Shown: in pieces, positions 16,721-35,474 of the stretch | Layout: each line of letters begins with the position of its first letter | How positions within the stretch are numbered: the first letter of the stretch is position 1 | DNA from: Methanobrevibacter sp. | GTDB lineage: Archaea; Methanobacteriota; Methanobacteria; Methanobacteriales; Methanobacteriaceae | Length of the DNA: 43,557 bases | Reading direction: 5' to 3' | Assembly: GCF_017468685.1 (NCBI RefSeq) | Contig: NZ_JAFUHT010000004.1 | Span: forward strand, 1 to 43,557 | Position numbers and translations under genes: made by a program | Notes under the pieces: model-generated | What the model was told of the DNA's origin: nothing | The model's input: only the letters and a program-made list of their open reading frames with translations | Databases searched by the model: none

Positions 16721-18055
16721 TTATTTTTTAACAATAATTTTGCCAGTTTTGCTTGCACTATTATATACATTATCACCAGCAAATTTAACAGTGTATTTGA
16801 AGGTTCCTTTTTTAGTGACTTTAACTTTTATGGAAGCTACACCTTTTGAATTTGTTTTAGCAGAAAATGTTTTACCATTAACTTTAAGAGAAACTTTTTT
16901 ACCTGAAATAACCTTATTTCCAGATTTTAATGTGATTTTAACAGTTTTTGCTTTTTTCACTTTTAAAGTGGCTTTTGGAGCTTTTAGAGAAGATGATTTC
17001 TTACTGACAGCGATTTGAACACTGCTGAAAGTGGATTTATAATCATCATCACCTGCAAATACCAGTGTAGCATAATGAGTTCCTGAAGTTGAATATTTTA
17101 CCGGCAAATTTATAATTCCCACATTATCAGTTGTTAGGCTTCTGGATTGTCCATCAAGAATGATAACAACATTTTTATTTGGAATAGGTTTATTATTAGT
17201 ATCTTTTAGTGTGAACTGCAGATTTCCATTGTCTGAAGCTTTAATATTCAGACTGGAAGAGACTATAGTTGTGGAAACTAATTCTTTCACTTTATTTTCA
17301 ACCATTTCAACACTATTAGCGTTTATGTTTGTTGCATTGATTGACTTTATGAAACTATTAACGTTTCCAATGACGATATTTTTTATTGTAGTATTTTGAG
17401 TATTGTTTAGAACTATTGCATTGAACAGGAAATCATTCGGGTCATATTTGGAGGTTTCTTGGTTAACTCCAACCCAGTTGAATGTCAGGTTTTCAAGCAA
17501 TACGTCATCGGCATCTACATAGACTCCGAATGGATTGTAGACATTATTTGCAATATAGTAATAGTCATTTGTAAATGAAAAACCGCTTAGGACAGTTCCA
17601 TTGGCTTTTGGGGAAATATAGAATATTCCATTATCGGCAGGACCTTCACCATACTTCATCATATGAGTGTGGTGAGGACATACTCCAACACTGGTGCCGG
17701 GAGTTGCAATTATTGTTAAAGTCTTATTGATCATAAAATGACAGTGAACAAATGTTCCATTTAATACTATGGTATCTCCAGGGTTTGCTTTATCAATAAT
17801 CGGTTGCACTGTAGGTTTTTGGACCTGATTCGGATTATCAGGATCAGGAGCAACATAATATGTTTGAGGTCCGGTTTCTTCATCACAGCAATCTGATTCG
17901 TCAGTAGTTAATTTACTATCATCATTAATTTCAATAATATCCTCATTTTCATCAGTCAAATTTAAATCATTACTGTCCTGAGCAGAAATGGATGAAATAA
18001 ATGTTAAACCAATGATTAAAATTAAGGATATGATTATTATTTTATTTATTTTCAT
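16721..18055 (-). CDS. Adhesin-like protein: short beta-helix plus two Ig-like domains, HCHF/CPHHTH motif
   Basis: The 444-residue protein has a signal peptide (IIIISLILIIGLTFISSISA) and an acidic spacer with a Cys-Cys pair (56-57). A NosD-like right-handed beta-helix spans about 75-255. Two Ig-like domains follow, ending in the Lys-rich TKKGTFKYTVKFAGDNVYN...KIIVKK. The beta-helix contains HCHF (104-107) and CPHHTH (126-131), shared with the adhesin starting at 28054. No membrane helix is found at the end, so attachment is probably by the basic Ig-like domain to the wall. AGGTGA lies before the ATG. A ligand cannot be predicted. Confidence 0.85.
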   Translation of the reverse strand: MKINKIIIISLILIIGLTFISSISAQDSNDLNLTDENEDIIEINDDSKLTTDESDCCDEETGPQTYYVAPDPDNPNQVQKPTVQPIIDKANPGDTIVLNGTFVHCHFMINKTLTIIATPGTSVGVCPHHTHMMKYGEGPADNGIFYISPKANGTVLSGFSFTNDYYYIANNVYNPFGVYVDADDVLLENLTFNWVGVNQETSKYDPNDFLFNAIVLNNTQNTTIKNIVIGNVNSFIKSINATNINANSVEMVENKVKELVSTTIVSSSLNIKASDNGNLQFTLKDTNNKPIPNKNVVIILDGQSRSLTTDNVGIINLPVKYSTSGTHYATLVFAGDDDYKSTFSSVQIAVSKKSSSLKAPKATLKVKKAKTVKITLKSGNKVISGKKVSLKVNGKTFSAKTNSKGVASIKVKVTKKGTFKYTVKFAGDNVYNSASKTGKIIVKK

Positions 18056-18132
18056 ATAATTTCACCTAATAATTTTATCAATATGTATAGTTTTTACTAT
18101 CATAATATATAACTATTGTTATAAATTGAAGT

Positions 18133-18153
18133 AAAAAAAATATAATAAAAAAA
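18133..18153 (-). terminator. T-tracts after the frameshifted adhesin gene
   Basis: Runs of seven (18153-18147) and eight Ts (18140-18133) on the minus strand lie just after the stop codon at 18158. A weak 4-bp GGAA/TTCC stem precedes them. Confidence 0.5.
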
Positions 18154-18157
18154 TTAA

Positions 18158-21100
18158 TTATATTGGAATTTCACTTTCCGGAACTTCATACAAGTAAGTA
18201 ACTTTAAATACCCTTGATGTGGAATTGATTAAAGACCCAATGGAAATTTCAATTTTATTGTTTGAAGCATTGAAGTTATTAGAATCGAAATTAAATGTTC
18301 CAATACCGTCCACTACATCAAAAACAACTTCTACTTGTTTATCAGTTCCACGATTTAATGTTGCATACATGTCAAACACTGGAAGATTTGAAGCCAACAA
18401 TCCATTTTTATAGAATTTAATGCTATAATTTCCAAAGGAATTATAAGTCATATTAAATTCGATGTTTGTAGTATTTATTCTTGGACACATTGTTCCATAA
18501 CCTACAACACCTGTGTCATTATCCCAAGTAACAAGATTGTTAGTACCATACCAATTTGGTTCCAATTGTAATTTTTCATTTGGATTTAAAAGTCCACCAC
18601 CATATATTCCCTCAGGATTTGCACTTAACTCACCAAGAATCATCATACTTGGACCTCTGGCATTTCTATAAATTGCATTATCAGTCACATGAGGTTCAAC
18701 AGCATTTTCGCAAAGATCATAACCTGCATTGAATCTCATTCCTTCAAGAACATTATCTGTAATAGTGTTTTGAGTAATTACAATTCCAGTGGAATAATTT
18801 GCATCAAGAGAAATACCCAAATGGTTTGAAAATATATGGTTTTATTGATTGTAACATTTACAGCAGAGTTATTCAGGAATATTCCATAACCAGATGGTCC
18901 TTCAGGAACAGTCATAATATACAATCCGATGTTTTCTGTTATTTCATTATTTAAAATTTGAGTGTTTGAAACGCCAAATCCATATTTTATACCATAATTG
19001 TTTTCTCTTAAAGTATTATCATCTATTAATAACTTTGAGGAATCCTGGGCAAATACTCCACTTTCAAATAATTTAATCATGTTTTTATTTAATTTTACAT
19101 TTGATGAATTAATAATGCTTACACCATAACCTGGCAAATTAATGATTCCTTCATTATAGCTACTTAATATTGATTCATCCAAATTATTAGAAATTATATT
19201 ATCACTTATATTCACCCCATCAGCATTTTCCACAACAACTGCATTTCCGGAATTTCCGTTGATTGAAAATCCGTCAATAGCAACATTTTCAGCTGATATT
19301 GTAAAGACAGGATTATTAATTTTAGCGTTTAATGCTGTTTGACATTGAGATTGAATATTTAAGGATTTTTTAATTATTAAAGAAATATCAAAATATTGAT
19401 TGCCTAAAAACTCAACATTAACATTTTCACCAGCTTTATCCAAAATGCCTTGAATTTCACTATTTGACAAACCATTGTCAACAAATACCGTGTTAGTAAC
19501 ATCTTTAACAGTGATTTTATTTATTTTGGAAACTTCTTTGTACTTATCACTACCCACGTACTTAGTTTCAACATCATACACTCCAGGAGTGGTGAAATTT
19601 AAGTTTATGCTAGCAATACCATTGCTGTCAGTTGTTTTAGTTACACTGTGACCATTATAATTAAATATAATGTTGTGATTAGATAGTGCATTGCCTGATG
19701 CATCCTTGAGTGAAACTGAATAATCTTTAAGCAAATCTTTTGAATAAGTCTTATCAGTGCTAATTATGTCTGTTGCAATCTTATTAACATTTATTTTACC
19801 GGTTGCAGCAGAAGACTTATAAATTCCATTTCCATCATAGTTAACTTTAACAGAATAGGAGTTTTCATCGGCAAAATTAAGGTTGAGGCTGACCTGACCT
19901 TTAGAATTGGTTGTTTTAGCATATGTTTTACCGTTGACTTTAAGTGTTAATTTTTGTTTGGATAATGCATTATTGCCAGATTTTAAAGTTACTGTATAAG
20001 TGGTTGATTGTTTAGGAAGTGTTGAAACAGTGGGTGCTGTTATTTTTGTTGCTGCTTTAGCAACTTTAATTGATCCTTTTGAAGATGCTTTCTTATAGAT
20101 TTTACTTCCTTTATAGCTTGCACTTACTTTATATGTTTTGAATTTAGAAAATTTCACTTTAATTGTAATTAAACCCTTCTTGTTGGTTTTTTTCACATAT
20201 TTTTTATTAGCAATTTTTATTGTAACTTTTTGTTTGGCTATTCCTTTACCATTGCGATCCTTTAAACTGATAACATATTTTGTAGAGGTTTTAGGCTTAA
20301 TTGTTAGTTTTGGAGTTGTTAATTTAGCCTTTTTAGAGGAATATTTAACAACGATTTTATTAGTTTTTGAAACTGCTTTATATTGATTAACCCCGTTGTA
20401 AGTTATTTTAATTTTATAAGTTTTCTTATTTTTATTAAATTTAAGTTTTACTTTTGCAACACCATTACTATTGGTGGTTTTAGTGTAGGTTTTACCATTA
20501 ACTTTAAATGTTACTTTTTGATTAGCTAAGGCATTACCTGATTCATCTTTTAATGTTATTGAATAATATTCCGCCATTTTAGGAATCATATTAATATTTG
20601 AAGAGGTTATCTTAGTTAAGGATTTTTTAACAGTGACAGTTGATTGTGCTGAAGATCCGTAATAGTCAACATCTCCATCCCCAGCATATCTTACAGTTAG
20701 TGTATAGGTTCCTTCATTCGCTTCATTAATATTTAATTTAGCCTGACCTCCATTGGAAGTTATGACATTATAATTTTTTGAGTTGATTGTGAATGTCAAT
20801 GTTTCACCGACAATAGCTTTTCCATTCATATCAGTTAATGTGGCAACAATTTCCTGATTGGAATTAGGATAAGTATTTATGGAATTTACAGACACTTTTG
20901 TTTCAATAGGAATGCCTGGAATATATGCATCATCTACAGCAAATGTTTTGGATACTTTATTATCAAAATTTGTTCCAGGTGTTGGCAGAACTGCAGTTAT
21001 GACATTTCCGGTTTCATTAAACTCCTCCATATAAAATCTAACTGTAGCAGTTCCATCTTTCATCATTACAGTTTTATAGACATCCCCTTCTTGAGGAGCA

Positions 21101-22575
21101 GCTGTTTTTCCAATTTTATTAAGATAGAATGTTACAGGAACTGAACTTATGTCTGTTGCAATATTTCCATTTGCATCAACAATTGAAATAGAATAAATTC
21201 CTTTTTTTACTTGTGTAATCTCACTTAACTGAAGTTCATAGTTACCTGTTTTCGCCCAAACCATTCTAGGTGCATAATAAGTATTCGGACAACTTACAAA
21301 TTCATTAATTTCAAAAACATAACCTAAAAACATTATTCCCTGATGACCATAATAATCTCCATTTCCCTGTCCCACATAAGTATAGATATCTTTTGAGGAA
21401 TCATAAACATAATCCCCAACTACTGTATTATATTCATATACCTGTGTCCAAACAGGTCTGTCGATGTCTGCGCTTCCAAAACCTCCATAATTAATCATAT
21501 AGTTATTGTTAATTACTTCTAAGCTATTTCCTTTTTGAGCTAAATTTGTGACATGAAAATCATTGAAAACTTCCCATTTATAATTTTGATTAAAGAAATT
21601 TCCTTTGATTTCGATTTTAACTATATCATTATCGACATACACTCCATTATTCTTATTGAAAGCAATGTAATTACTTAATATATAAATATTATCTGAGGAA
21701 GTTAAGCTAATACCATTTCCATTATCTGAAATGTTATTGCTGTTAACAGTCAAATAACTTCCTTTTCCGGAAAATGAGACTCCTGCGTTATTATTATTAA
21801 TTATAATATTAGATGAAATAACTGTTCTTGTTGAATCAATGATATTTATCCCATTTTTTGAATTTTCTATGATTGAATTTTTAACGGAGACATCCTGTGA
21901 GTTCTTAATGTTTAATGCATTTGCACAATTAGATAATTCAACATTTTCAACAATTGTGTTTTTTGAATTTTCAACTCGTATTGCATCCGAATAGCCATTA
22001 TTTGTAATTTTACAGTTATTAATAGTAACGTCAGAAGCCCCACTAACCAATATTCCATAATCCTCATCATTATAAACATTGTTTTTTATGGTAAATCCTT
22101 GAATGACTGTTCCACTGGCACTTGGAGAAATGTAAAAAATTCCTTTATAACCAGAACCTAAAGTACTGCTTGGACATACCTCCATTGTAGTTCCAACATT
22201 ACTTATAATGGTTAATTTTTTATTTACAACAAAATGACAATGAACATAACTTTTTCCATTGATGATAATTGTATCTCCAGCTTTTGCATCATTTATTGCT
22301 TTTTGAATTGTTGATTGAGTCATTTCATTGTGATCCTCTTCAACTTCATCAACAATTATCGTATTAGCAGACAGCACATCATTATTGGTATTTTTAAGTG
22401 CATCTTCATCAATTGACTGCAATTTTGCATCATTTGATATTTCTAGATTATCCTCAAAAGAAGAATCTGTCAAGTTATTATCCTCATTATTTGCTGCGGC
22501 TAGTGAACCTAAACAAATGAATAATAGCAGCAATAAGGAAAAAATAATTACAAATTTATTATTAAATATTCTCAT
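18158..22575 (-). pseudogene. Large adhesin-like protein, two beta-helix regions and five Ig-like repeats, frameshifted near its 3' end
   Basis: The restored gene would encode about 1471 residues. It has a signal peptide (FSLLLLLFICLGSLAA), a first NosD-like beta-helix with VHCHF (111-115) and Cys134, and a middle domain shared with the adhesin starting at 28054. Five Ig-like repeats cover about 19500-20905 (each with a TYTKTTNSNGVAKVKL-like core). A second beta-helix (GLSNSEIQGILD onward) is followed by a beta-rich end. At 18832-18837 (ATATAT) an extra TA pair, relative to the expected frame, shifts translation out of NVTINKTI. The following frame resumes with HLGISLDANYSTG. The main frame 18778-22575 would thus give a truncated 1265-residue protein. 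A two-base indel in a short TA run may be phase variation, decay or sequence error. Confidence 0.8.
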
Positions 22576-22725
22576 AAAAATTTACTCCCCAAAATATTAT
22601 AAAAATATATCAATATATAATTATATGATAATCGATGTATATAATATATTTTCGTTTAATTTGATTTAAAAGAAAAAATATGAAAAATAATAAAAATGAT
22701 TTGAATTAAAATTCACAAAGCAATT

Positions 22726-22755
22726 AAAAAAAAAGAATGTGAAAGTATTTTCACA
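22726..22755 (-). terminator. Stem-loop plus nine Ts after the 979-residue adhesin gene
   Basis: TGTGAAA (22738-22744) pairs with TTTCACA (22749-22755) around GTAT. Nine Ts follow on the minus strand (22734-22726). It closely resembles a bacterial intrinsic terminator. Confidence 0.8.
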
Positions 22756-22757
22756 GA

Positions 22758-25697
22758 TTATTTTACTTTTAAAGTTATTTTAGCTTTAAAATTTAGATAT
22801 TTAACAGTGATTTTATACTTTCCCACTTTTAAATTCTTAAAGTAAACGGTTGCAATTCCTTTTTTATTAGTCTTTGCACTATAAGTTTTTCCTTTGATTT
22901 TAAAAGTAAGTTTTTTACCAGATATAGCTTTACCAGCACTAGTTTTTAGTTTTGCAGTGTATTTAATTTTTTTAGCTTTTTTCTTAGTGATGCTTTTTAC
23001 TTTTAAAACATTTTTAACTTTAATAGTATTTTTAACAGTTGATGCCTTGTATGATGTTGTTACAGTGTATTTGCCTGGAAGCAAACTTAATTTCTTAGAT
23101 GCATAACCTTTTTTATCAGTCTTTACTTTATAAGTCTTTCCAGCTATTTTCATTATCACAACCTCATTTTGGCCAACAATCTTGCCGTTAGGTCCTACAA
23201 CTCGAACTTTAAATGTTACTTTTCCACTATAATCGACAACAATATTTTTATTGTTTATAATCTTGGAAGGGTTTGAGCTAACACTTAAAGTTATTGATTG
23301 GTCATGGATTTTAGATGTAACAGAAGATATTGCTGAAACATATAATGATTTTGATAAGTATCCATCTTCAACAGTCAATGAATCCCCAGTAGACAAGTCA
23401 ACTTTAAATGATGGCAATTCATTCGGATTATTCAACTGGGAAATTGAATTGTATTTATTTTTAACCTCATTGAATGTAATTACAATATTCGAATTTTCGT
23501 ATTGCATCAATGGAATGGTATTTTTAAAACCCATTACAATCCATGTAAATTCATCAGACAGGTTGGTTTTGATTAATTTTTCAAAATCAGGATTATTTGA
23601 TCCCCACCAATTATCAGACAATCCACTATTATTGTTATTTACATATATTGCATCACCTGATGTTGCATGATTGTTGAATAATATGCTGTGAGAGATATCA
23701 ATATCTTTTCTGGCGATTATAGCTCCACCTTGTGAGCCTGCAACATTATTTTCGAAAATGGAACCAACAATATTTAAAACTTTATTATTATCAATAGCAC
23801 CACCATTAATTGTTGCTTTATTGTTTATGAAATTTGAATAATAGATAGATAAGTTTCCGGCATTATCAATAGCTCCTGCACTGTAAGCCTGATTATCATC
23901 AAATAAAGAATTTATCAAAGTAATTACACCAGAATTATCAATAGCTCCACCATAACTTTTTGCTTTATTTGAAACAAACTGTGAGTCACTTACATAAACA
24001 TTTGCATCATAATTGAATATAACTCCACCTTCATCAGCACCAGTATTTCCTAAAAAAATTGAATTAAGAATTTTAACATTTCCACCAACAAGCGCTAATA
24101 CACCGCCTTTTCTAGAAATTTGATTATAATTGAATTTTGAATTAGATATATTTAAATCTGTGGAGGAATATATTGACCCTGCTTCAGAAGCTTTATTTTT
24201 TGTGAATCTTGAACCATCGATTTTTGTTGATGCAATATTATAAATCACACCTCCGAAATATGCTTCATTAGCTTCTGCATTTAAAATGTTTACCAGTAAA
24301 TTTGCGGCATTATATATTACTCCTCCGCTCATCGTTGCAATATTTTTATTAGAATTGATATTATCCATTTTCAATTCATTTTTATTATAAGCTCCGGCAC
24401 CATTTGCAGCATAATTTGAATTTAATTGAGAATTATAAAAAGTTAAACTGCCCGTATTGTAAATTGCACCACCATCACTTGCAGAATTTCCATTTAAGTT
24501 GGAGTTTAAGATATTGACAGAAACTGCATCTACATAAATCCCTCCACCATTTTCTGCAGAATTATTCGAAATTATACAATTATTAATAATTGCATCATCA
24601 ATATTTTTTAAAGATAAGCAGCCACATCGAATTCCACCTCCATTAGTATTTGCAGAATTGTTTGATATGATTGAATCACTTAATTTAATTGATCCGTCAT
24701 TAACGTCAATTCCACCGCCACGGTAAGCAGAATTATTTAGAATTTGACTGTTTTGAACAGTCAGTTTAGCTTTCGCCTCAACATATACTCCCCCACCATA
24801 AACAGCATAATTATTTAAAACAATACAATTTTTAAGAAGTAGACTGAATTCTGATACATAAAAACCCCCACCCTGTTTCACATTATTTGTATTGTTCATA
24901 ATGATTGAGTCATAAACTTCACAGATTCCCCAACTTTTAATTCCTGCACCCAAATCAGTGCAGTTATTTGAAATTACATTAGTACTGTAGACTTTTAAAA
25001 TTCCACGATTATTATAGATTGCTCCTCCTCTTTCAGCGACATTATACATGAAATTGGAATTATAAATATTCATTTCACCCCAGATATTATAGATTGCTCC
25101 TCCTTCTTCACAAATATTATGAGTAAATGTTGAATTAAAGATATTTTCAACACCATTTGCATTATCATTTTCAATTGCTGCGCCTGAAACTGCAGTATTA
25201 CCTTCAAATTTTGAGTTATAAACATTTAAAGTGGATTTGTCATAACAATATACTGCTCCACGTTCAGAATTTGTATTGATTATTGTGGAATTTAAAATGA
25301 TCAGTTTTCCATTGTTAATTATTGCTCCACCTTGACTTTCCGAATAGCCGTTTGTTATTGTCAAACCTATTATATTTACGTTTTTATTTCTTGAAATTTC
25401 AAATATTCTGGAAGTGTTATTTGCATCAAGAATTGTTTTTGATTCAAATCCTTGAATAGTAATATCCTTATTAATCTTTATAGATTTTCCAGTACTGACA
25501 TAAGTTTTATTGTCTAAAAAAATAGAATCGCCAGAGTTTGCACTATCAATTAAGTTTTGTATTGATTCAAAATTATCATCGGTTAAATTTTCATCAACAG
25601 TATCCTCTTCAGCATGGACCGAATTAACAATTAATATCGATAAAAATACTATTAATATTAATATAAATTTAGATTTATGTTTTTTAATTTTTATCAC
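22758..25697 (-). CDS. Adhesin-like protein with many GGAIYN (PMP-type) beta-helix repeats and two C-terminal Ig-like domains
   Basis: The 979-residue protein has a signal peptide (FILILIVFLSILIVNSVHA). A very long right-handed beta-helix occupies about residues 45-740. In it GGAIYN/GGGIYV/GGAIDN steps recur roughly every 22-25 residues, as in the chlamydial polymorphic membrane protein repeat. Asn and Ser ladders dominate. Two Ig-like domains close the protein, ending in Lys-rich KKGIATVYFKNLKVGKYKI. It has no C-terminal membrane helix. It lacks the HCHF motif found in three neighbours, so it forms a different subfamily. A long cell-wall-attached stalk or adhesin role is inferred from architecture. 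Confidence 0.87.
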   Translation of the reverse strand: MIKIKKHKSKFILILIVFLSILIVNSVHAEEDTVDENLTDDNFESIQNLIDSANSGDSIFLDNKTYVSTGKSIKINKDITIQGFESKTILDANNTSRIFEISRNKNVNIIGLTITNGYSESQGGAIINNGKLIILNSTIINTNSERGAVYCYDKSTLNVYNSKFEGNTAVSGAAIENDNANGVENIFNSTFTHNICEEGGAIYNIWGEMNIYNSNFMYNVAERGGAIYNNRGILKVYSTNVISNNCTDLGAGIKSWGICEVYDSIIMNNTNNVKQGGGFYVSEFSLLLKNCIVLNNYAVYGGGVYVEAKAKLTVQNSQILNNSAYRGGGIDVNDGSIKLSDSIISNNSANTNGGGIRCGCLSLKNIDDAIINNCIISNNSAENGGGIYVDAVSVNILNSNLNGNSASDGGAIYNTGSLTFYNSQLNSNYAANGAGAYNKNELKMDNINSNKNIATMSGGVIYNAANLLVNILNAEANEAYFGGVIYNIASTKIDGSRFTKNKASEAGSIYSSTDLNISNSKFNYNQISRKGGVLALVGGNVKILNSIFLGNTGADEGGVIFNYDANVYVSDSQFVSNKAKSYGGAIDNSGVITLINSLFDDNQAYSAGAIDNAGNLSIYYSNFINNKATINGGAIDNNKVLNIVGSIFENNVAGSQGGAIIARKDIDISHSILFNNHATSGDAIYVNNNNSGLSDNWWGSNNPDFEKLIKTNLSDEFTWIVMGFKNTIPLMQYENSNIVITFNEVKNKYNSISQLNNPNELPSFKVDLSTGDSLTVEDGYLSKSLYVSAISSVTSKIHDQSITLSVSSNPSKIINNKNIVVDYSGKVTFKVRVVGPNGKIVGQNEVVIMKIAGKTYKVKTDKKGYASKKLSLLPGKYTVTTSYKASTVKNTIKVKNVLKVKSITKKKAKKIKYTAKLKTSAGKAISGKKLTFKIKGKTYSAKTNKKGIATVYFKNLKVGKYKITVKYLNFKAKITLKVK

Positions 25698-25843
25698 CTA
25701 ATTTTAATGTTAAATTTAAATTTTAAATAATCTAGGTTATTTATTAGAAAAATTATTATTTTATAATTAATTTGATAATAACGATTATAAATTATTTACT
25801 TATCATATTATCTATTTAAATTCGTATTTAAAATATAGGTTTA

Positions 25844-25882
25844 TAAAAAAAGAAAAAATAAATATGAAAATATTTATTTTTT
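25844..25882 (-). terminator. Stem-loop plus T-tract after the 726-residue adhesin gene
   Basis: A perfect 13-bp stem (25853-25865 with 25870-25882) with a GAAA loop overlaps the stop codon. Seven Ts follow on the minus strand (25850-25844). Confidence 0.75.
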
Positions 25883-28054
25883 AACAACTTTAATTGTTTT
25901 TGTTAAAGAAACTGCCTTATAATTTGCATTTCCTAAAAATTCCATTGAAATTTTATATTTCTTGATTTTTTTAAGCTTAATGGAAATTTTAGCTATTCCT
26001 TTCTTGTTTGTTTTAAGAGTATATGTTTTTCCATTTAATTTGACGATTATTTTTTGGTTTTTTAAAGCTTTACCTGAACTTGTGGTTAATTTCAATTTGT
26101 AAGTTTTCTTCTTATTCTTTTTGATTTTTAGGTTAGAAGCTTTAATCTTAGATTTCTTAGAACCTGTTTTTATTACCACAGTTGAAGATATGCTGCTTGC
26201 TTTATAATCATCATTGCCCAAGTAAGTGATTGTTGCTTTATATGTTTTTTTAGAAGATAAAGAAACTTTCACTTTAGCAACACCATTAGAGTCAGTTTTT
26301 GCACTATAAGAGTGCCCATTTAATTTGAAAGTAATAGTCTGACCAGATATTGGTCTTCCTTTACTATCTACTAACTTTGCAGAAAGATATGAATCAGATA
26401 AAGGATAAGTAGTTAGTTTGGATGAACTTAATGATGTAGCCGGATTGATTGGAATATCTGAATCTTTAACATTAAATGTCATTAAAATATTATTTTTAAC
26501 AAACTCGGATAGTCCAGGAAATGCAACAGTAATAATGTTTCCTGATGATGCAAAAGATGAGAAAACATCCCTAAAATCTGCAGTAGCAACACCATTTTTA
26601 ATTAAAACTTGTTTACATATGTCTGATTGTCTTGGATTGATTGTATAATATTCATTTAAATAAAATGTTAAATAGAAATCATTGAAATCAGCTGCAACAT
26701 TTCCTTTTGAATCAACAATTGAAATTTGGTATACACCATTTTTAATTTGATTAATATTGCTCAACTTCAAGTTAAAATCATATTTTCCATTGTTTCCAGG
26801 ACCATTTAAAGACCATGGAATGTTTGTTTTATAATAAGTAAAACCGCAGGGAATATCATTGTAAATAAATGCATGTATCATGTATACATATGATTTGCTT
26901 TCGATATATGTTCCTTCACCTACATCCCCATATACATCATTTTCACTATCATATTTCAAATCGCCTTGAGGATTTTCAACATACACCCTATGATGCAAAA
27001 TCATTGACTTATGCCCTTCAAAATAATTATTATCAATGATTGTGAGTTGATCTGCACCTTCCTCATTATTCAAGTTTCTGGTTCTATAATCATACATTAT
27101 TGCATGAAGCCCATTGCTTAAAAAGATATTGCCTTTCACGATAAGCTTTGTAATGTTTGAATTAACATAAATTCCGCAACCTGTATCATCATTTTCAAGT
27201 CCATTGTTCTGAATCAGATTATTGTTAATTGTAATATAATTTACAGTTTCCAAATTAATTCCTGAAAGAGAATTATCAGTTATTTGATTATTCAAGATAT
27301 TAATATTGCTTGAATCACCATTAACGGAAATTCCTGAATTTTGAGTATTTAAAATCTTACAATTAACTATATTAATATTAGTTGAATTAATTATCCTAAT
27401 TCCATTAATCGTATTGTTAATCACTAAATTAGACAGAGTTATTCCATTTGAATTTTGAATTGTAATACCTGAAAGGTAATCTTCTCCTTTGCTGATAAAA
27501 TTAATATTACAATCATTAATCACGACATTTGATGCACCATCAATTAAAAAGCTAAATGGTGTTTCAGCTTTATCGTTGTTGTTAAAGTTAAATCCTTCTA
27601 TTACAGAACCGCTTCCGCCAGAGGTTATATAAAATACTCCATGTTCACTAACGCCTTCATGAGTATGGTGAGGGCATGCATCAAGATAAGTTCCAGTTTG
27701 ACTAATAATAGTTAATGGTTTATTTACAGTAAAATGACAGTGCACAAAATCTCCTTTTAATATTATTGTATCGCCAGGATTTGCCAAATCCAATTGTGGT
27801 TGAACAGTTGGTTTTAGAACTTGATTCGGATTGGTTTTATCGGCAACAATTGTGATTGTTTTACTGCTTGAAGAGGAATCTGATAGAATTTCACCACCAT
27901 CAATTGATGAATCAATTATTTCATCCTGTGGAACTTCAGAGTAATCCAATATGTCATCAGTACCATTACCTGATATGTTTTCGGCAGATATGTTTCCAAC
28001 AGTAAAAATGAATATTGATAAAATAAGTAGTATGATTAGAATTTTAGACTTCAT
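25874..28054 (-). CDS. Adhesin-like protein: beta-helix with HCHF/CPHHTH motif, middle domain, two Ig-like domains
   Basis: The 726-residue protein has a signal peptide (LIILLILSIFIFTVGNISA), a Ser-rich spacer and a NosD-like beta-helix (about 80-335) with HCHF (105-108) and CPHHTH (127-132). A middle domain (NGVYQISIVDSKGNVAADF and following) recurs in the large frameshifted neighbour. Two Ig-like repeats follow, and a Lys-rich end (KIKKYKISMEFLGNANYKA). The head is a paralogue of the 444-residue adhesin (shared KPTVQP..D.ANPGDTI, HCHF, CPHHTH). GTGAT before the ATG serves as ribosome site. The gap to the preceding adhesin gene is only 64 bases, with a terminator inside it. Confidence 0.86.
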   Translation of the reverse strand: MKSKILIILLILSIFIFTVGNISAENISGNGTDDILDYSEVPQDEIIDSSIDGGEILSDSSSSSKTITIVADKTNPNQVLKPTVQPQLDLANPGDTIILKGDFVHCHFTVNKPLTIISQTGTYLDACPHHTHEGVSEHGVFYITSGGSGSVIEGFNFNNNDKAETPFSFLIDGASNVVINDCNINFISKGEDYLSGITIQNSNGITLSNLVINNTINGIRIINSTNINIVNCKILNTQNSGISVNGDSSNINILNNQITDNSLSGINLETVNYITINNNLIQNNGLENDDTGCGIYVNSNITKLIVKGNIFLSNGLHAIMYDYRTRNLNNEEGADQLTIIDNNYFEGHKSMILHHRVYVENPQGDLKYDSENDVYGDVGEGTYIESKSYVYMIHAFIYNDIPCGFTYYKTNIPWSLNGPGNNGKYDFNLKLSNINQIKNGVYQISIVDSKGNVAADFNDFYLTFYLNEYYTINPRQSDICKQVLIKNGVATADFRDVFSSFASSGNIITVAFPGLSEFVKNNILMTFNVKDSDIPINPATSLSSSKLTTYPLSDSYLSAKLVDSKGRPISGQTITFKLNGHSYSAKTDSNGVAKVKVSLSSKKTYKATITYLGNDDYKASSISSTVVIKTGSKKSKIKASNLKIKKNKKKTYKLKLTTSSGKALKNQKIIVKLNGKTYTLKTNKKGIAKISIKLKKIKKYKISMEFLGNANYKAVSLTKTIKVVKK

Positions 28055-28093
28055 AAGTAATCACATAGTATTAACAATCGTTATAAAGAAAAC

Positions 28094-28139
28094 AAAAAAA
28101 ATAAAGAAAAATTGTTGTTTATTTTTTAACAACAATTTT
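28094..28139 (-). terminator. Stem-loop plus Ts after the 603-residue adhesin gene
   Basis: AAAATTGTTGTT (28108-28119) pairs perfectly with AACAACAATTTT (28128-28139). A T-rich run follows on the minus strand (28101-28094). It lies across the stop codon. Confidence 0.7.
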
Positions 28140-29930
28140 ACCTGCTTTAAGTCCAGCATTGTATGTACTGTCACCAGCAAAGCTAGCTACATAACTGTAA
28201 GTACCTTTTTTAGTTAATTTAACTTTAATAGTTGCTACACCTTTTTTATTGGTTTTAGCAGAGAAAGATTTACCATTAACATGAATAGTTACTTTTTTAC
28301 CAGCTATAGCTTTACCTGCAGATTTTAAAGTAATTTTAACTTTTTTAACTTTTTTAACTTTGAAGGTTGCTTTAGGAGCTTTAAGAGTAACTGCTTTTTT
28401 AGCTACAGTTTGAGTAACAGTTTGAGTTTGAGTTACTGGAGTTAAAGTTATGGAATTTTGAGAAGCTGCAAATTTACTGGTTTGTGCAAAATTAATAGTA
28501 ACTGCTTTACCAGCTTCACCATTAATTGTGAAAATACCATTTTCATCAGTGACGATTTTTACATCAGCACCATTATTAATGGAATAAGTTAAATCTGCAG
28601 AGTCAATAGCTTTACCTGCAATATCTTTTAAAACACCAGTGATTTTTGTTCCATCTATAGCTGTAATAGCAATTTGAGTTTGAACTAATTCTGCTTTAGG
28701 AATTACAATATCACTAGTATCACTAGATTCAGTTCCCCAATCATTATTCCAAACAACTAAAGTTTTTACGCCATCAGCAACTTGATTACCAGTAATAGTA
28801 ATTTCTTCATAAGGGTTTAACATACCTGATCTGCATAAAATGTGCAATAAAGTTACACCAGAAGTTACAACATCATCATTATATTTTTCAACGATATTGT
28901 TAGTTACATTGATATTACCAAGAGTACTTGGATAACCATGTGCAGTATTTCCTTGTTCAGCAGCGATTAACCAGTTATCATCAATTACTTTGAAAGTGTT
29001 GTTATCTATGAAAACACCGCTGGATGCTTTTTGAATACTGATAACTGGATATGCACTCCATGAATGAACTCCATCATCAAATGAACCACAGTTTATGAAA
29101 GTGTTTCCAGTAATATAAGTACCGTCAGTGGATGCTCCTCCAAAGAAGATTGAATAAACATTGTTTTTGAATGTATTGTTAATAATTTTTGCATCCCCAC
29201 TTGCTTGTGCAATAGAAATTGCATCTAACACCACACCATCAAAAGTGTTGTTTAAAATTGTAGTAAAGAAAGATCCACCTACACTGATTACTTTTGAACC
29301 TGTTTCTTTGTTAACGGTTGGATCATTTAAAAGTTTAGTTGCGTAACCTCCTTCAAATTCACTGTTTTTAATAGTGATATAATTAGAGGATGAAACTACA
29401 ACCGCTTGGTTGAAATCTTTAAAGTAACAATTATCGACAATTCCACCTTCAGCAGCAGCACCGTTGAAACTAATACCCCATCCATTTACAGACCCATCAT
29501 AAACGAGATTATTTTTAGAGTTTGTATCAATAAATCTAATTCCCTGAATAGTTACGGATTTAGCATTTACACTAATTAAACCTTTACCAGCACCATCTCC
29601 TTTAATAGTAGTTGCACCATTTCCTTTAATGACAATATTATCAGTAGTTACTGCAATAGTTTTGTTTCCTATATCATATTCTGCATATTTACTTAAATCT
29701 ACAGTGTCTCCATCATTAGTTGAATCAACTGCTTTTTGTATTGCATCGTAAGTATCATTATCCGGAGATATAGGTTCAGCACCTACAACTTCATCAATAT
29801 CACTTTGACTTACAGAATCAACATCGTCAGTAGCTACAACATCTTGAACATCTTCTGCTGAAACTGAACTAACAGATATGGCAATTAAAACAACTAAAAA
29901 GATAGACATTAAAATCTTTTTGTTATTCAT
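28119..29930 (-). CDS. Adhesin-like protein: NosD-type beta-helix with two Ig-like domains
   Basis: The 603-residue protein has a signal peptide (ILMSIFLVVLIAISVSSVSA) and an acidic spacer (VQDVVATDDVDSVSQSD). A beta-helix (about 55-395) starts with DAIQKAVDSTNDGDTVDLSK, the common opening step of NosD-like helices. An Ig-like domain (about 415-500) and a Lys-rich C-terminal Ig-like domain ending in GKIVVKK follow. It lacks the HCHF motif. GGAG before the ATG is a good ribosome site. The leader is about 100 bases long, with a TATA-like element flanked by two ATCGAT sites, which suggests regulated expression. A terminator closes the transcript. Confidence 0.86.
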   Translation of the reverse strand: MNNKKILMSIFLVVLIAISVSSVSAEDVQDVVATDDVDSVSQSDIDEVVGAEPISPDNDTYDAIQKAVDSTNDGDTVDLSKYAEYDIGNKTIAVTTDNIVIKGNGATTIKGDGAGKGLISVNAKSVTIQGIRFIDTNSKNNLVYDGSVNGWGISFNGAAAEGGIVDNCYFKDFNQAVVVSSSNYITIKNSEFEGGYATKLLNDPTVNKETGSKVISVGGSFFTTILNNTFDGVVLDAISIAQASGDAKIINNTFKNNVYSIFFGGASTDGTYITGNTFINCGSFDDGVHSWSAYPVISIQKASSGVFIDNNTFKVIDDNWLIAAEQGNTAHGYPSTLGNINVTNNIVEKYNDDVVTSGVTLLHILCRSGMLNPYEEITITGNQVADGVKTLVVWNNDWGTESSDTSDIVIPKAELVQTQIAITAIDGTKITGVLKDIAGKAIDSADLTYSINNGADVKIVTDENGIFTINGEAGKAVTINFAQTSKFAASQNSITLTPVTQTQTVTQTVAKKAVTLKAPKATFKVKKVKKVKITLKSAGKAIAGKKVTIHVNGKSFSAKTNKKGVATIKVKLTKKGTYSYVASFAGDSTYNAGLKAGKIVVKK

Positions 29931-30465
29931 GATTATTTCTCCATTAAAATATACTAATATTATAATAATACAAATTTTTGAAATATTGATTAAATATTAG
30001 CTAATTATAATATATTATCGATAAGTAATATAAATATTATTGTTTATCGATTATATTAAAAATTAATTGAAACTACTTTAAATATAATTAATATTTTTAA
30101 TAATAATTAAAAAAATAAAATAAAGATTAATTATAAGTTATTAGATAAATAACTAAAATATATAAGTAAAAATTAAATTTAAATCATTTAAACATAAATA
30201 AAAATATATGTAAAATAATTCATAACGATAAAATTACAAATTATTCTTAAAAATATGATTAAAAAGTAAATTAAATGTAAACTTATAAATATGCAATAAA
30301 TAATTTATAAATAATGAAAATAAATTAAAATAATCTTTAAAATTAAATATAATAATTTATATAATGAAATTTAATACAAAAATTAAAAAAACGATATACA
30401 TAATATTATATAACAATTAATCATAAAATTACTATTAAAGAAATCATTCTTAAAACTTAAAGGAG
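29931..30465. other. Very AT-rich divergent intergenic region between two adhesin genes
   Basis: No coding frame is convincing in these 535 bases. The left part holds the promoter and long leader of the minus-strand adhesin. The right part is almost pure A/T with scattered TATA-like stretches and carries the promoter of the plus-strand adhesin. The only strong signal at its end is the AGGAGGTGA ribosome site at 30461-30469. Confidence 0.6.
30015..30053 (-). promoter_or_regulatory. TATA-like element flanked by two ATCGAT sites, promoter of the 603-residue adhesin
   Basis: The minus strand reads AATATTTATATTA (complement of 30026-30038), a good archaeal TATA box. The palindrome TTATCGATAA (30015-30024) lies just downstream and a related TTTATCGATTA (30043-30053) just upstream. 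The downstream site has the same sequence and relative position as in the FecBCD/FmdE promoter. A common regulator is possible, not shown. Confidence 0.35.
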
Positions 30466-32022: not shown

Positions 32023-32056
32023 ATAGTTTAAAACTATTTACTATTTACTATTTTTT
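32018..32056. terminator. Shared stem-loop between two converging genes
   Basis: AGTAAATAGTTT (32018-32029) and AAACTATTTACT (32031-32042) form a 12-bp inverted repeat covering both stop codons. On the plus strand a T7 run follows (32050-32056). Confidence 0.7.
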
Positions 32057-32465
32057 TATTTAAATCTCTTGCGAGCAAATAATAGTATATGTAAAAGCCA
32101 CACCAGAAAACTGCTGCAAATATACAAGCTATTGAAACCCATACTAAAATCGGTTCCCATCCAAAGTTAATTGGCATCCATTTCAAATAAATTGCAATAA
32201 TAAATAATACTGTCATCCCAATGCCCATTTGGAAAATAATTTGGAACGGCAATGCAATATCTTCTCTTTCATAAATCATACCGGATAATGAAAATGCCCA
32301 TCCTGCAACGATTGATCCTAAAAATGCATTGATTACATCAACTCCTGAAAATGATACAACATTAACTCCTTCTCCAAGAGAAATTAAAACCATAACAAGC
32401 ATTACAATAAAACATCCGACAAAAGCCCCTAAAGCTAAACTTTTAATTAAATCCGCAATTTTCAT
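32034..32465 (-). CDS. DUF3021-type four-helix membrane protein
   Basis: This 143-residue protein has four membrane helices: LALGAFVGCFIVMLVMVLIS, VINAFLGSIVAGWAFSLSGM, PFQIIFQMGIGMTVLFIIAI and PILVWVSIACIFAAVFWCGF. The layout and the position directly after a LytTR gene match DUF3021 proteins of Firmicutes, where LytTR-DUF3021 pairs form small membrane-linked regulatory systems. It begins 8 bases after the LytTR stop and is the last gene of the operon. The molecular action of DUF3021 is unknown; control of the LytTR regulator from the membrane is a common proposal. Confidence 0.75.
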   Translation of the reverse strand: MKIADLIKSLALGAFVGCFIVMLVMVLISLGEGVNVVSFSGVDVINAFLGSIVAGWAFSLSGMIYEREDIALPFQIIFQMGIGMTVLFIIAIYLKWMPINFGWEPILVWVSIACIFAAVFWCGFYIYYYLLARDLNKKIVNSK

Positions 32466-32473
32466 TTAATCAC

Positions 32474-32914
32474 CTATAAATCCAAAGCCTTTTTAAAATC
32501 AGGCAAGTATTTTCTTGAGATATTGTCCTTTAAGCCATTTTTTAGTTGTATAAACATCATTCCCTTAAGTGAAGGAGCCACTCTTTCAATCTTTTTCAAA
32601 TTAACAATTGTGGTTTTTGAGATTCTCACAAAATCGCTTGTTAAAGTCTCTTCAACCTGATATAATGCCTTCTTAATGAGATACTCATTCTTTTGTGTGT
32701 AAACTTTAACCTGTTTGTCCTCTACTCGGAACATGCATATTTCACTTAATTGCAGAAGTGCAATATCTGAGCCTTTCTTTACAGCCAGCATGTCATTTGA
32801 GTCATCACTTTCGAGAATGGATATTGCCTTTGTGACATTATCGCTCAATTCGTTAGTGTGGATGTCTGCATGAGGCTCCTTAATATCTCTTGAAACAAAT
32901 AGGTTTACTTTCAT
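32474..32914 (-). CDS. LytTR-family DNA-binding regulator
   Basis: The 146-residue protein lacks a receiver domain. Residues 1-40 are a short beta/alpha lead. Residues 45-145 form the LytTR beta-fold DNA-binding domain: LLQLSEICMFRVEDKQVKVY, then SDFVRISKTTIVNLKKIERV and GLKDNISRKYLPDFKKAL, the end motif of the family. Proteins of this class regulate their own operon and sometimes surface or bacteriocin-type genes in bacteria. It is flanked by two 2TM genes upstream and DUF3021 downstream, all on one strand with 0-8 base gaps. LytTR is typically bacterial, so the operon was probably acquired by transfer. Confidence 0.88.
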   Translation of the reverse strand: MKVNLFVSRDIKEPHADIHTNELSDNVTKAISILESDDSNDMLAVKKGSDIALLQLSEICMFRVEDKQVKVYTQKNEYLIKKALYQVEETLTSDFVRISKTTIVNLKKIERVAPSLKGMMFIQLKNGLKDNISRKYLPDFKKALDL

Positions 32915-32918
32915 GATT

Positions 32919-33194
32919 TTAGTCTCTTAATTTTTCCATTTCTTCTTGAATTTTGCGTTCTCTATATTCATCCGTGTCAAATTTATCCATAAGCACATAA
33001 GCTCTTAGAAAATCAACAAGCACTCCAATTCCCCAGAATAGAACTACCCATAAAAACCACCAGTATTCCGGAGTAAATATTATGTTAACAATGGCTAGAA
33101 TTACATTTACTACAATATAACTATATAAATTGCGTTTAAATTTAATTTTTCTTTCAACTCTACTTTCAGCAATTGCTCTTAAATTATCACTCAT
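32919..33194 (-). CDS. 2TM-domain protein (second copy)
   Basis: The 91-residue protein has a basic amphipathic start (AESRVERKIKFKRNLYSYIV), two membrane helices around a short turn (IFTPEYWWFLWVVLFWG) and a charged end (YRERKIQEEMEKLRD). It is of the 2TM type often found fused in front of bacterial LytTR or sensor proteins, here as a free protein. It is a tandem paralogue of the upstream 85-residue protein, with shared LYxYIxVNxxxAI and VxxFWGI segments. Its ATG abuts the stop of that gene (TAAATG), and the LytTR gene starts 4 bases after its end. Confidence 0.78.
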   Translation of the reverse strand: MSDNLRAIAESRVERKIKFKRNLYSYIVVNVILAIVNIIFTPEYWWFLWVVLFWGIGVLVDFLRAYVLMDKFDTDEYRERKIQEEMEKLRD

Positions 33195-33452
33195 TTAATC
33201 ACCCATTTTTGAAATTTCTTTTTCTATCATCTTTTCACGATTAATAAAGTTATCAAATGGATATGCTTTTAAAAAGTCACATGTTAAACTAATTCCCCAG
33301 AAAAACATTACAGCCATCAATAACTCATAGCTATGTAGGAATACAAAGCTGATTATTGCTATTGCTGAGTTTACAATTATATATTTATATAGTTTTTCCT
33401 GAAATCTTATTTTTGCTTCAACTCTTTTTTCTGCTTTTTGTCTTAATGTCAT
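33195..33452 (-). CDS. 2TM-domain protein (first copy)
   Basis: The 85-residue protein has a basic start (KAEKRVEAKIRFQEKLYKYI), two membrane helices (VNSAIAIISFVFL and LLMAVMFFWGISLTCDFLKA) and a charged tail. It is a paralogue of the next gene and the first of the four-gene LytTR operon. GTGAT precedes the ATG. The pair may form a membrane hetero-oligomer that signals to the LytTR protein; this is inferred from position and from known 2TM-LytTR fusions. Confidence 0.75.
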   Translation of the reverse strand: MTLRQKAEKRVEAKIRFQEKLYKYIIVNSAIAIISFVFLHSYELLMAVMFFWGISLTCDFLKAYPFDNFINREKMIEKEISKMGD

Positions 33453-33578: not shown

Positions 33579-34277
33579 CTATAATACAGCTACTAAATAA
33601 TATAAAATTGAAGTTATTGCAGGAACTGTCAAATTGTCGATTCCACCATAACTGAATGCTTCACATATTGTTGCCACTGCAGAAATAAGTATAATGTATA
33701 CAATATTGAATTCAGGCATTACACAACCGATTGAAGTGAAAACCATCCATACGAATACACTCATCACAGTTGTAATGACAAACATTGTAAGTGATCCTTC
33801 AAGAGATTTTGTTCCTCCAAATACTGTGTATTTGACTTTACCGAATTTTTGACCTATCAATGCAGCGAATCCGTCACCGTATACCATTGGCACGATAGCT
33901 AGTGCAACAATCCATATGAAATATTTAGGGTCGTTTGCCGGTGCTATTGTGGTGAATATTGCAATCAATATTGTCCATATTCCAGCATAGAAGAATAATC
34001 CTAATGCGTGTCCGGATTCAGTTACACTGTTTTCTATTTTTATTGGTGAGTATTCTGTTAGGAAGAATAGTACTATTGTGATTGGCAGTGTTAAAAACCA
34101 TACCATTACCCATGGATCTGAGAAAAATGGCATGGCAAATATCATGTTACCTACCATAATGTGTAAAAATTTACGTGAAACTTCAGGCCTTGTCTTTAAA
34201 ACCATTTCAGCTACAACAAAAATGACGGCAACGTAAACATATACTATAATTAATGCAAGGACATCTGAGAATATCAT
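33579..34277 (-). CDS. Phytol/dolichol kinase-like membrane protein (VTE5/SEC59 family)
   Basis: From the ATG at 34277 the protein has 232 residues and about seven membrane helices. Family motifs are EVSRKFLHIMVGN, VYGDGFAALIGQKFGK, GTKSLEGSLTMF and EAFSYGGIDNLTVP. The pattern belongs to the CTP-dependent polyprenol/phytol kinase superfamily (SEC59, VTE5), related to CDP-alcohol forming enzymes. Likely reaction: phosphorylation of a prenyl alcohol at the membrane. The TTG at 34283 is rejected in favour of the ATG that shares a base with the stop of the cyclase-like gene (TAATG). Coupled translation with that gene points to one pathway. Archaeal lipids are prenyl-based, so an alternative is a role in isoprenoid alcohol salvage. 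Confidence 0.82.
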   Translation of the reverse strand: MIFSDVLALIIVYVYVAVIFVVAEMVLKTRPEVSRKFLHIMVGNMIFAMPFFSDPWVMVWFLTLPITIVLFFLTEYSPIKIENSVTESGHALGLFFYAGIWTILIAIFTTIAPANDPKYFIWIVALAIVPMVYGDGFAALIGQKFGKVKYTVFGGTKSLEGSLTMFVITTVMSVFVWMVFTSIGCVMPEFNIVYIILISAVATICEAFSYGGIDNLTVPAITSILYYLVAVL

Positions 34278-35392
34278 TAGCAATACTCTCCGTACTCACA
34301 ACCTGCATTTTCTATTTTAACATGGTCAATCAAGGTTCCATCTTTTTTGTATAGTTTGATTTCACCCCAACCGTTTCCACCATTCCATAATCGGTTGTGT
34401 CTTTTTTGTCCGTCCGGTGCTTCATAATTGAAAAGCATCATTTCATCACGTTTGCAGTAAAGTACAAGCTCCATTTTTGAGTTTTTGTTACTTGCATTTA
34501 TATGCCATGTGTGAACATCTTCACCTTCTTCAAAGTCAAAGTCGATTTTTACAAGGTTCCAGAATCTTGCGAAGTTGTATTCATACATGGTTCCTTCATA
34601 GTAAAAACCAATGAGCAGCTTACGTGGAATTTCAATACCGAATGCTTTTGGCCTTCCTCCGCCTGCTTCAAATGCAGAATTCTCTAATTTTTTACCGCTG
34701 ATTAAGCTGGTTATGTTACATGATGAAATCCATAGCCATGGAGAAGTGAAGTCTCCTCCCCAGTTTTTATCAGCATAACCGTAGGATTTTTCAGGAATCA
34801 CTTCATATTCTTCACCATCCAGCCAGATGGTTCCGCTGTACTCTGTTTTGATTCCTTCTGCATGCCAGAACATTTCAAAGGAGTTTAATTTTCTGAAAAA
34901 TGAGTTTGCACCATAACCTACGTTAAAAGTGATTTGTTTGTCGATGTCTAAATCCCACATCATGTCTCCAGCATCAGACATGTATTCAGGGTGGTTTTTA
35001 GCATCCTCTTCACTTACTCTTGCAAATCCGCTCATGTGAGTTTCTGTTAGGCTGCAATCACCTACTTGAATGTTTAATTCATCATCCGGACAGTTGAAGT
35101 ATTTCATTGAGTAGAAATTGTGAATTTGTTTTGGGTTTTTACCCCATGTTCCTGCCTTTATCATACAGTATGATGGTTTTTTACCTGCTTTTTGGTTTTC
35201 AGGTAATTGTCCAAGTGTTGGTTCTTCTTCAGCTAATGCCGGATTGCATACAAAGTATTCTATAAAAAATGGTCTTTCTTCACCAGTCTTTTTATTATAT
35301 GCAGTTAGGGAATGCCACCACCAGTCATAACCTTTCTTGGCAAGTGGCCCTTTGAGCATATAATAATTTCTTTTCAAATCACTCTTATTCAT
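34277..35392 (-). CDS. Tocopherol cyclase-like protein (VTE1-like)
   Basis: The 371-residue protein carries the pattern of the tocopherol cyclase-like family: GYDWWWHSLTAYN near the start, SFEMFWHAEGIKTEYSGTIW in the middle, then GYADKNWGGDFTSPWLW and FEAGGGRPKAFGIEIPRK. No signal peptide is found, so it acts in the cytosol or at the inner membrane face. In plants VTE1 closes the chromanol ring of tocopherols; bacterial and archaeal members have no assigned reaction. GGAGG stands a few bases before the ATG, a strong ribosome site. Coupling to a phytol kinase-like gene mirrors the plant vitamin E enzyme pair VTE5/VTE1. The substrate remains unknown, as methanogens are not known to make tocopherol. 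Confidence 0.78.
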   Translation of the reverse strand: MNKSDLKRNYYMLKGPLAKKGYDWWWHSLTAYNKKTGEERPFFIEYFVCNPALAEEEPTLGQLPENQKAGKKPSYCMIKAGTWGKNPKQIHNFYSMKYFNCPDDELNIQVGDCSLTETHMSGFARVSEEDAKNHPEYMSDAGDMMWDLDIDKQITFNVGYGANSFFRKLNSFEMFWHAEGIKTEYSGTIWLDGEEYEVIPEKSYGYADKNWGGDFTSPWLWISSCNITSLISGKKLENSAFEAGGGRPKAFGIEIPRKLLIGFYYEGTMYEYNFARFWNLVKIDFDFEEGEDVHTWHINASNKNSKMELVLYCKRDEMMLFNYEAPDGQKRHNRLWNGGNGWGEIKLYKKDGTLIDHVKIENAGCEYGEYC

Positions 35393-35474
35393 ATTATTCC
35401 TCCAAAGGTAAGATAATATGATATTTATTAAAAATCGTTTAAATAATTTTTTATGAATATTTGCTTAAAAATAG

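Follow-up and report, generated by a model that had tools for sequence, protein, structure and literature searches.

A bacterial relative of vitamin E cyclase, coupled to a native isoprenoid-alcohol kinase-like gene in Methanobrevibacter, points to a possible new isoprenoid-lipid modification

The hydratases, cyclases and lyase of the CrtC/VTE1-type fold work through carbocations at prenyl or tertiary carbons, and Fsa2-type members of the same fold catalyze [4+2] cycloadditions. The photosynthetic cyclases have the motif YxEKNWG with a neighboring WxW (in plants as FPxxWxW), and tocopherol cyclase-like proteins of heterotrophic bacteria have already been annotated (PMC4963081). In RgCrtC an aspartate (D268) and tryptophans including W283 and W285, which protonate a prenyl double bond and hold the cation, are essential by mutagenesis (PMC12402844). 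In Sterolibacterium a 25-hydroxysteroid kinase works with a 25-phosphosteroid lyase (25-PSL) that is now known to have this type of fold; no candidate lyase gene lies near the kinase (PMC8449060). The kinases of the SEC59/DGK1/VTE5 group include VTE5, FolK and PfPolK, and geranylgeraniol kinase activity is known from Sulfolobus; RKxxH, one of the motifs of the group, forms a charged clamp in PfPolK, the prenol kinase of the malaria parasite (PMC10849223).

Archaeal genes of both kinds have been named before. The gene mru_0432 of M. ruminantium M1 is annotated as 'tocopherol cyclase vte1' (PMC7772410) and a 'phytol kinase' (K18678) is annotated in M. smithii (PMC10939349). The families and the individual genes are known, but we found no report of the pairing itself, and the open-access papers that we found describe neither the coupling nor the repeated transfer nor the lack of the pathway, all of which are set out below.

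The pair lies in a 43,557-nucleotide stretch of Methanobrevibacter sp. DNA (contig NZ_JAFUHT010000004.1), the whole of which is called the window here (Table 1).

Table 1. Position of the gene pair and its signals in the window
Feature	Position	Strand	Basis and remarks
Cyclase-like gene	34277..35392	(-)	ORF, 371 aa, ATG; PF14249 / CrtC-VTE1 superfamily
Gene for SEC59/VTE5-type kinase-like integral membrane protein	33579..34277	(-)	ORF, 232 aa, ATG at 34277, stop at 33579
TAATG stop/start overlap (translational coupling)	34275..34279	(-)	Sequence
Shine-Dalgarno-like GGAGG, 5' of cyclase-like gene	35399..35403	(-)	Sequence, CCTTTGGAGGAATAATATG

A preliminary description of this DNA had noted that the two genes share a base, and they do: the stop TAA of the cyclase-like gene (34279-34277) and the start ATG of the kinase gene (34277-34275) have one base in common within TAATG (34279-34275). 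All the motifs that it had quoted for the two proteins are likewise present in the translations. A stop/start overlap of 1 or 4 bases is retained in 29 of the 34 loci examined. Compared with close relatives, the cyclase-like gene has a dN/dS of ~0.02-0.04, with dS near saturation, and the kinase gene one of ~0.04-0.12; strong purifying selection acts on both, and the pair is more than a product of chance.

The 3' side of the kinase gene (32034-33452, minus strand) holds a pair of small membrane ORFs together with genes for a LytTR DNA-binding protein and a DUF3021 protein, a block that is kept together in many Methanobrevibacter loci and resembles a bacterial-type LytTR regulatory cassette. 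Elsewhere on the minus strand of the window are a reverse transcriptase that by eye resembles a group II intron maturase (136-1650, near the contig end) and a ~13 kb run of large, repeat-rich, adhesin-like surface proteins (16721-30000).

Where do the two genes come from? Orthologs of the kinase occur across the Methanobacteriales, including two other families of the order. In the older lineages (L144-L147, L157) the kinase gene is beside, or divergent from, a UbiA gene of the geranylgeranylglycerol-phosphate geranylgeranyltransferase type, and in many cases a dTMP-kinase-like gene follows it downstream; in M. smithii-like genomes (L148, L149) it sits between cofH and that dTMP-kinase-like gene. 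The kinase is native to the Methanobacteriales and vertically inherited, and its native context is archaeal lipid synthesis.

The cyclase-like gene has a different history. Within the phylum it is present in 4 of 20 genera, and its nearest relatives outside the phylum are in Paenibacillus, Clostridium and Lachnospiraceae (55-66% identity) and in spirochaetes; many of the carriers are gut or rumen organisms. In the tree the main archaeal group of copies stands beside a Clostridium/Lachnospiraceae clade, and the copies of three genomes (G071, G088 and G119) fall within another bacterial clade. Both one common clade for all archaeal copies (p-AU 1.9e-6) and placement of the G071 copy with the main archaeal group (p-AU 8.8e-7) are rejected. 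The gene was transferred from Firmicutes to archaea at least twice. Joint transfer of the kinase was considered and rejected, the kinase being native and order-wide and its profile finding no match in 14 of the 16 bacterial cyclase-carrier genomes tested. Neither gene has relatives in the plasmid collection searched, and PHROGs gave none. Two 'Bacteriophage sp.' scaffolds from human feces that lack annotation (MT837528.1, 4279-5394; MT838316.1, 2578-3702) each encode a relative at 40% identity; they could be mislabeled bacterial DNA or a mobile carrier.

The association of the two genes recurs well beyond the window. The cyclase-like gene is present in 85 of 152 Methanobacteriota genomes and a clear kinase in 102; of the 74 genomes that have the two together, 71 carry them side by side on the same strand with the cyclase-like gene directly upstream. 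The flanks of the pair vary between the main Methanobrevibacter group, the ruminantium type (L163, L192), G132 (L190) and G071 (L159). In G071 the cyclase-like gene, the kinase gene and a dTMP-kinase-like gene stand in a row (L159, 74-1990): the cyclase-like copy is the second import, yet it is directly upstream of the kinase, with the ancestral dTMP-kinase-like gene behind. By our estimate, random insertion among ~2,000 genes would give such a repeat in about 1 in 1,000 cases or less. G071 is the strongest case for repeated association, to be read with the caveats that its assembly has 430 contigs and 5% contamination, that the contig is 4.2 kb long and that the G071 kinase sits on a long branch; by eye, the remaining genes of the contig look archaeal.

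The link is useful but not obligate. Neither gene needs the other, since Methanosphaera (9 genomes, the genus being taken from named relatives) keeps the cyclase-like gene and has no kinase, and M. smithii-like genomes and several other Methanobrevibacter have the kinase alone. One genome (G073; L153, 3295-3636) retains a cyclase-like remnant, an ORF of 114 codons, beside an intact kinase gene, and this represents recent gene loss. In Firmicutes the picture differs from what a conserved unit in gut bacteria, for which the preliminary description had suggested looking, would give: the cyclase-like gene is solitary there, and across 42 bacterial loci it has no fixed neighbor. A conserved Firmicutes operon was rejected on this ground; minor recurrences were a PF06541 membrane protein in 3 loci, DUF362 in 2 and TetR in a few.

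We propose that the pair forms a prenyl-lipid-modifying unit, in which the native kinase would phosphorylate a prenol and the Firmicutes-derived partner would protonate a prenyl double bond and so hydrate or cyclize the chain, and we put the chance that this is right at about even. The solitary state of the cyclase-like gene in Firmicutes and Methanosphaera raises another idea, namely that the enzyme acts by itself on a prenylated compound from diet or host, a detoxification like that by kievitone hydratase in fungi, and that the kinase is adjacent because of expression or repeated insertion at a tolerated site, with no shared pathway. The gut or rumen habitat of many carriers, the TetR-type regulators beside the gene in a few bacteria and the presence of kievitone hydratase among the top structural matches would all fit. 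However, two imports that are separate in the tree both have the gene next to the same kinase, and the pair occurs in different genomic contexts (the main Methanobrevibacter group, G132, ruminantium-type genomes and G071), so that a neutral neighbor is unlikely; we regard solitary detoxification, too, as unlikely.

What kind of enzyme is the cyclase-like protein? It scores 44.4 bits with PF14249 (Tocopherol_cycl), above the cut-off of 26.6, though over residues 166-368 only; this is the search by which the preliminary description had proposed to check its tocopherol cyclase-like reading. No CrtC-named Pfam or NCBIfam model matches. An AlphaFold model built with 51 homologs (pLDDT 92.5) matches the two-lipocalin-domain, CrtC/VTE1-type fold (Foldseek probability 1.00, E 5e-9 to 7a0t). 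Its top solved matches are Fsa2-type pericyclases, kievitone hydratase (7a0t/7a0q) and 25-PSL (9g4c, 9fzn), at 9-13% identity and a TM-score of ~0.5. A fold match and conserved adjacency, the two things whose absence was to count against the preliminary description, were thus both found. Because the fold also includes pericyclases, it does not fix the reaction type.

Residues D208, W211, W219, W221, H177 and E179 are invariant in the 51 homologs, and the set looks catalytic. The invariant motif YADKNWG...W-x-W aligns with DRQWG...W-x-W of kievitone hydratase (7a0q). Judged from motif and spacing, D208 would be the counterpart of D268 in RgCrtC, and W219 and W221 those of W283 and W285; D208 is accordingly the predicted catalytic acid, and W219 and W221 are predicted to hold a carbocation. 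The photosynthetic signature YxEKNWG is replaced by YADKNWG, the change from Glu to Asp being invariant in the 51 homologs. Like the VTE1 of plants and cyanobacteria (PF14249, EC 5.5.1.24) and like the tocopherol cyclase-like proteins that heterotrophic bacteria have (PMC4963081), the window protein matches PF14249 above cut-off and has (E/D)KNWG followed by W-x-W, but its acid is D rather than E, DWWWH stands in place of FEGWY, its match is confined to the model's C-terminal part, and its genome lacks a pathway to an aromatic prenyl substrate. With CrtC and kievitone hydratase it has in common the arrangement of D and W-x-W (essential in RgCrtC) and, for the latter, the fold; it differs in matching no CrtC-named model, in its 11-13% identity to kievitone hydratase and in belonging to a separate archaeal/Firmicutes family. 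The signature of this subfamily is GYDWWWHS (DWWWH) with YADKNWG, that of the plant-like type FEGWY with YxEK(N/D)WG. Clostridium intestinale encodes both the DWWWH/YADKNWG form and a plant-like FEGWY/YIEKDWG form (L179), and the two are therefore distinct paralogs. The label tocopherol cyclase-like holds at the level of fold and motif, but the protein belongs to a subfamily of its own and is not of the plant-like type. Two Clostridium proteins (L183, L184) are relatives without the DKNWG motif and are perhaps non-catalytic.

These residues bear on the idea that the adjacency is incidental and that the protein, lipocalin-like in fold, carries lipids or acts on a non-prenyl compound. Such a role could be accommodated by the pericyclases in the fold class, by the partial match to PF14249 and by the occurrence of each gene alone, but it sits badly with an invariant set that looks catalytic, with strong purifying selection and with repeated neighboring of the kinase, and we consider it quite unlikely.

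In the proposed prenyl-lipid-modifying unit, the native membrane kinase would use a nucleotide (CTP, by analogy with its family) to phosphorylate an isoprenoid alcohol of the geranylgeraniol or polyprenol type. We infer that its soluble partner would then act on the same compound: Asp208 would protonate a trisubstituted prenyl double bond, Trp219, Trp221 and the WWW motif would hold the tertiary carbocation, and capture by water or an internal nucleophile would leave the chain hydrated or cyclized, elimination being a further possible outcome. Gut Methanobrevibacter may thus, we suggest tentatively and at rather less than even chances, make an undescribed hydrated or cyclized isoprenoid (a prenol, a polyprenyl phosphate or a diether chain) by means of a VTE1/CrtC-type enzyme and their own prenol kinase. 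A literature search on hydroxyarchaeol as the product yielded nothing usable.

Methanobrevibacter dominate methane formation in the livestock gut, and one thing that distinguishes them is their isoprenoid lipids, in the membrane and as cell-wall carriers. A conserved, transferred and translationally coupled pair that seems to change isoprenoid chains, in organisms with no known use for it, offers a concrete genetic handle on an undescribed lipid step. It would also give a first function to a large uncharacterized subfamily of PF14249 common to gut Firmicutes, spirochaetes and archaea, and, if the proposal is true, it would mark a new, Firmicutes-derived branch of archaeal isoprenoid lipid chemistry.

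The structural match to 25-PSL suggests a variant in which a tertiary or allylic prenyl alcohol is phosphorylated and the partner eliminates the phosphate, a net nucleotide-driven dehydration as with 25-hydroxysteroid kinase and 25-PSL. The comparison with 25-PSL covers fold and one motif only: the fold match is clear and the motif match, to DRSWG, is weak but at the same acid. A kinase likewise works with a lyase of CrtC/VTE1-type fold in the 25-hydroxysteroid system (PMC8449060); unlike that system, the window pair has no steroid context. VTE5-type kinases, however, are known for primary prenols, and in Firmicutes and Methanosphaera the enzyme lacks this kinase partner. We see in the kinase-lyase order a genuine rival, though an improbable one.

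The smaller protein is less easily placed. Its motifs RKFLH, YGDGFAALIGQKFGK, GGTKSLEGS and GGIDNLTVP are invariant or nearly so in 24 homologs and correspond to RKxxH, GDGxAxxIG, KSxEGS and DNxxxP of the SEC59/DGK1/VTE5 kinases. No curated Pfam or NCBIfam model accepts it (for a relative, PF01148 gives E 0.03), so that the SEC59/VTE5 assignment of the preliminary description agrees with the motifs but is not matched by curated models. The structural model (pLDDT 78) may have the CdsA-like fold of the known kinases; against CDP-DAG synthetase 4q2g Foldseek gives a probability of 0.99 but E 0.02 and TM 0.34. A PDB sequence search returned only NMDA-receptor matches, which we take as chance. Besides lying outside the curated models, the gene differs from the known kinases in being an archaeal, vertically inherited one.

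In plants VTE5 and VTE1 act in vitamin E synthesis, an analogy drawn in the preliminary description that does not carry over. A single UbiA prenyltransferase is encoded in the genome; it is of the archaeal-lipid type, exceeds the PRK12884 cut-off and scores 44.6 bits with the homogentisate phytyltransferase model (cut-off 226), far below what that model requires. No aromatic prenyltransferase was found, either near the pair, as had been noted before, or anywhere in the genome, and 4-hydroxyphenylpyruvate dioxygenase (HPPD) was not found in it either; at an assembly completeness of 96%, no single absence is absolute. Since the sole UbiA is of the lipid type and HPPD is missing, tocopherol synthesis lacks support. 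A true tocopherol or chromanol pathway, for which VTE1-like and VTE5-like genes side by side would speak, is rejected on this gene content in a host that is a strict anaerobe, and we rate it as extremely improbable. Once the vitamin E pathway falls, phosphorylation and modification of a prenyl lipid by the pair, also raised in the preliminary description, is the best reading left, its substrate and product being those conjectured above.

VTE6, the phytyl-phosphate kinase of plants, we place in the DUF92 family; the genome encodes one DUF92 protein, which makes a second phosphorylation possible. As a co-traveling partner DUF92 was uninformative: it is present in 138 of 152 genomes of the phylum and, being near-universal, neither tracks the kinase nor marks a pathway. 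In Lacrimispora one protein joins a homolog of the kinase (80 bits) and a DUF92 domain (127 bits; L191, 3181-4623, minus strand; the same gene as L164), and the fusion gene adjoins two genes that read as uppS-like from their translated sequences. This fusion is possibly a one-protein prenol-to-prenyl-diphosphate enzyme.
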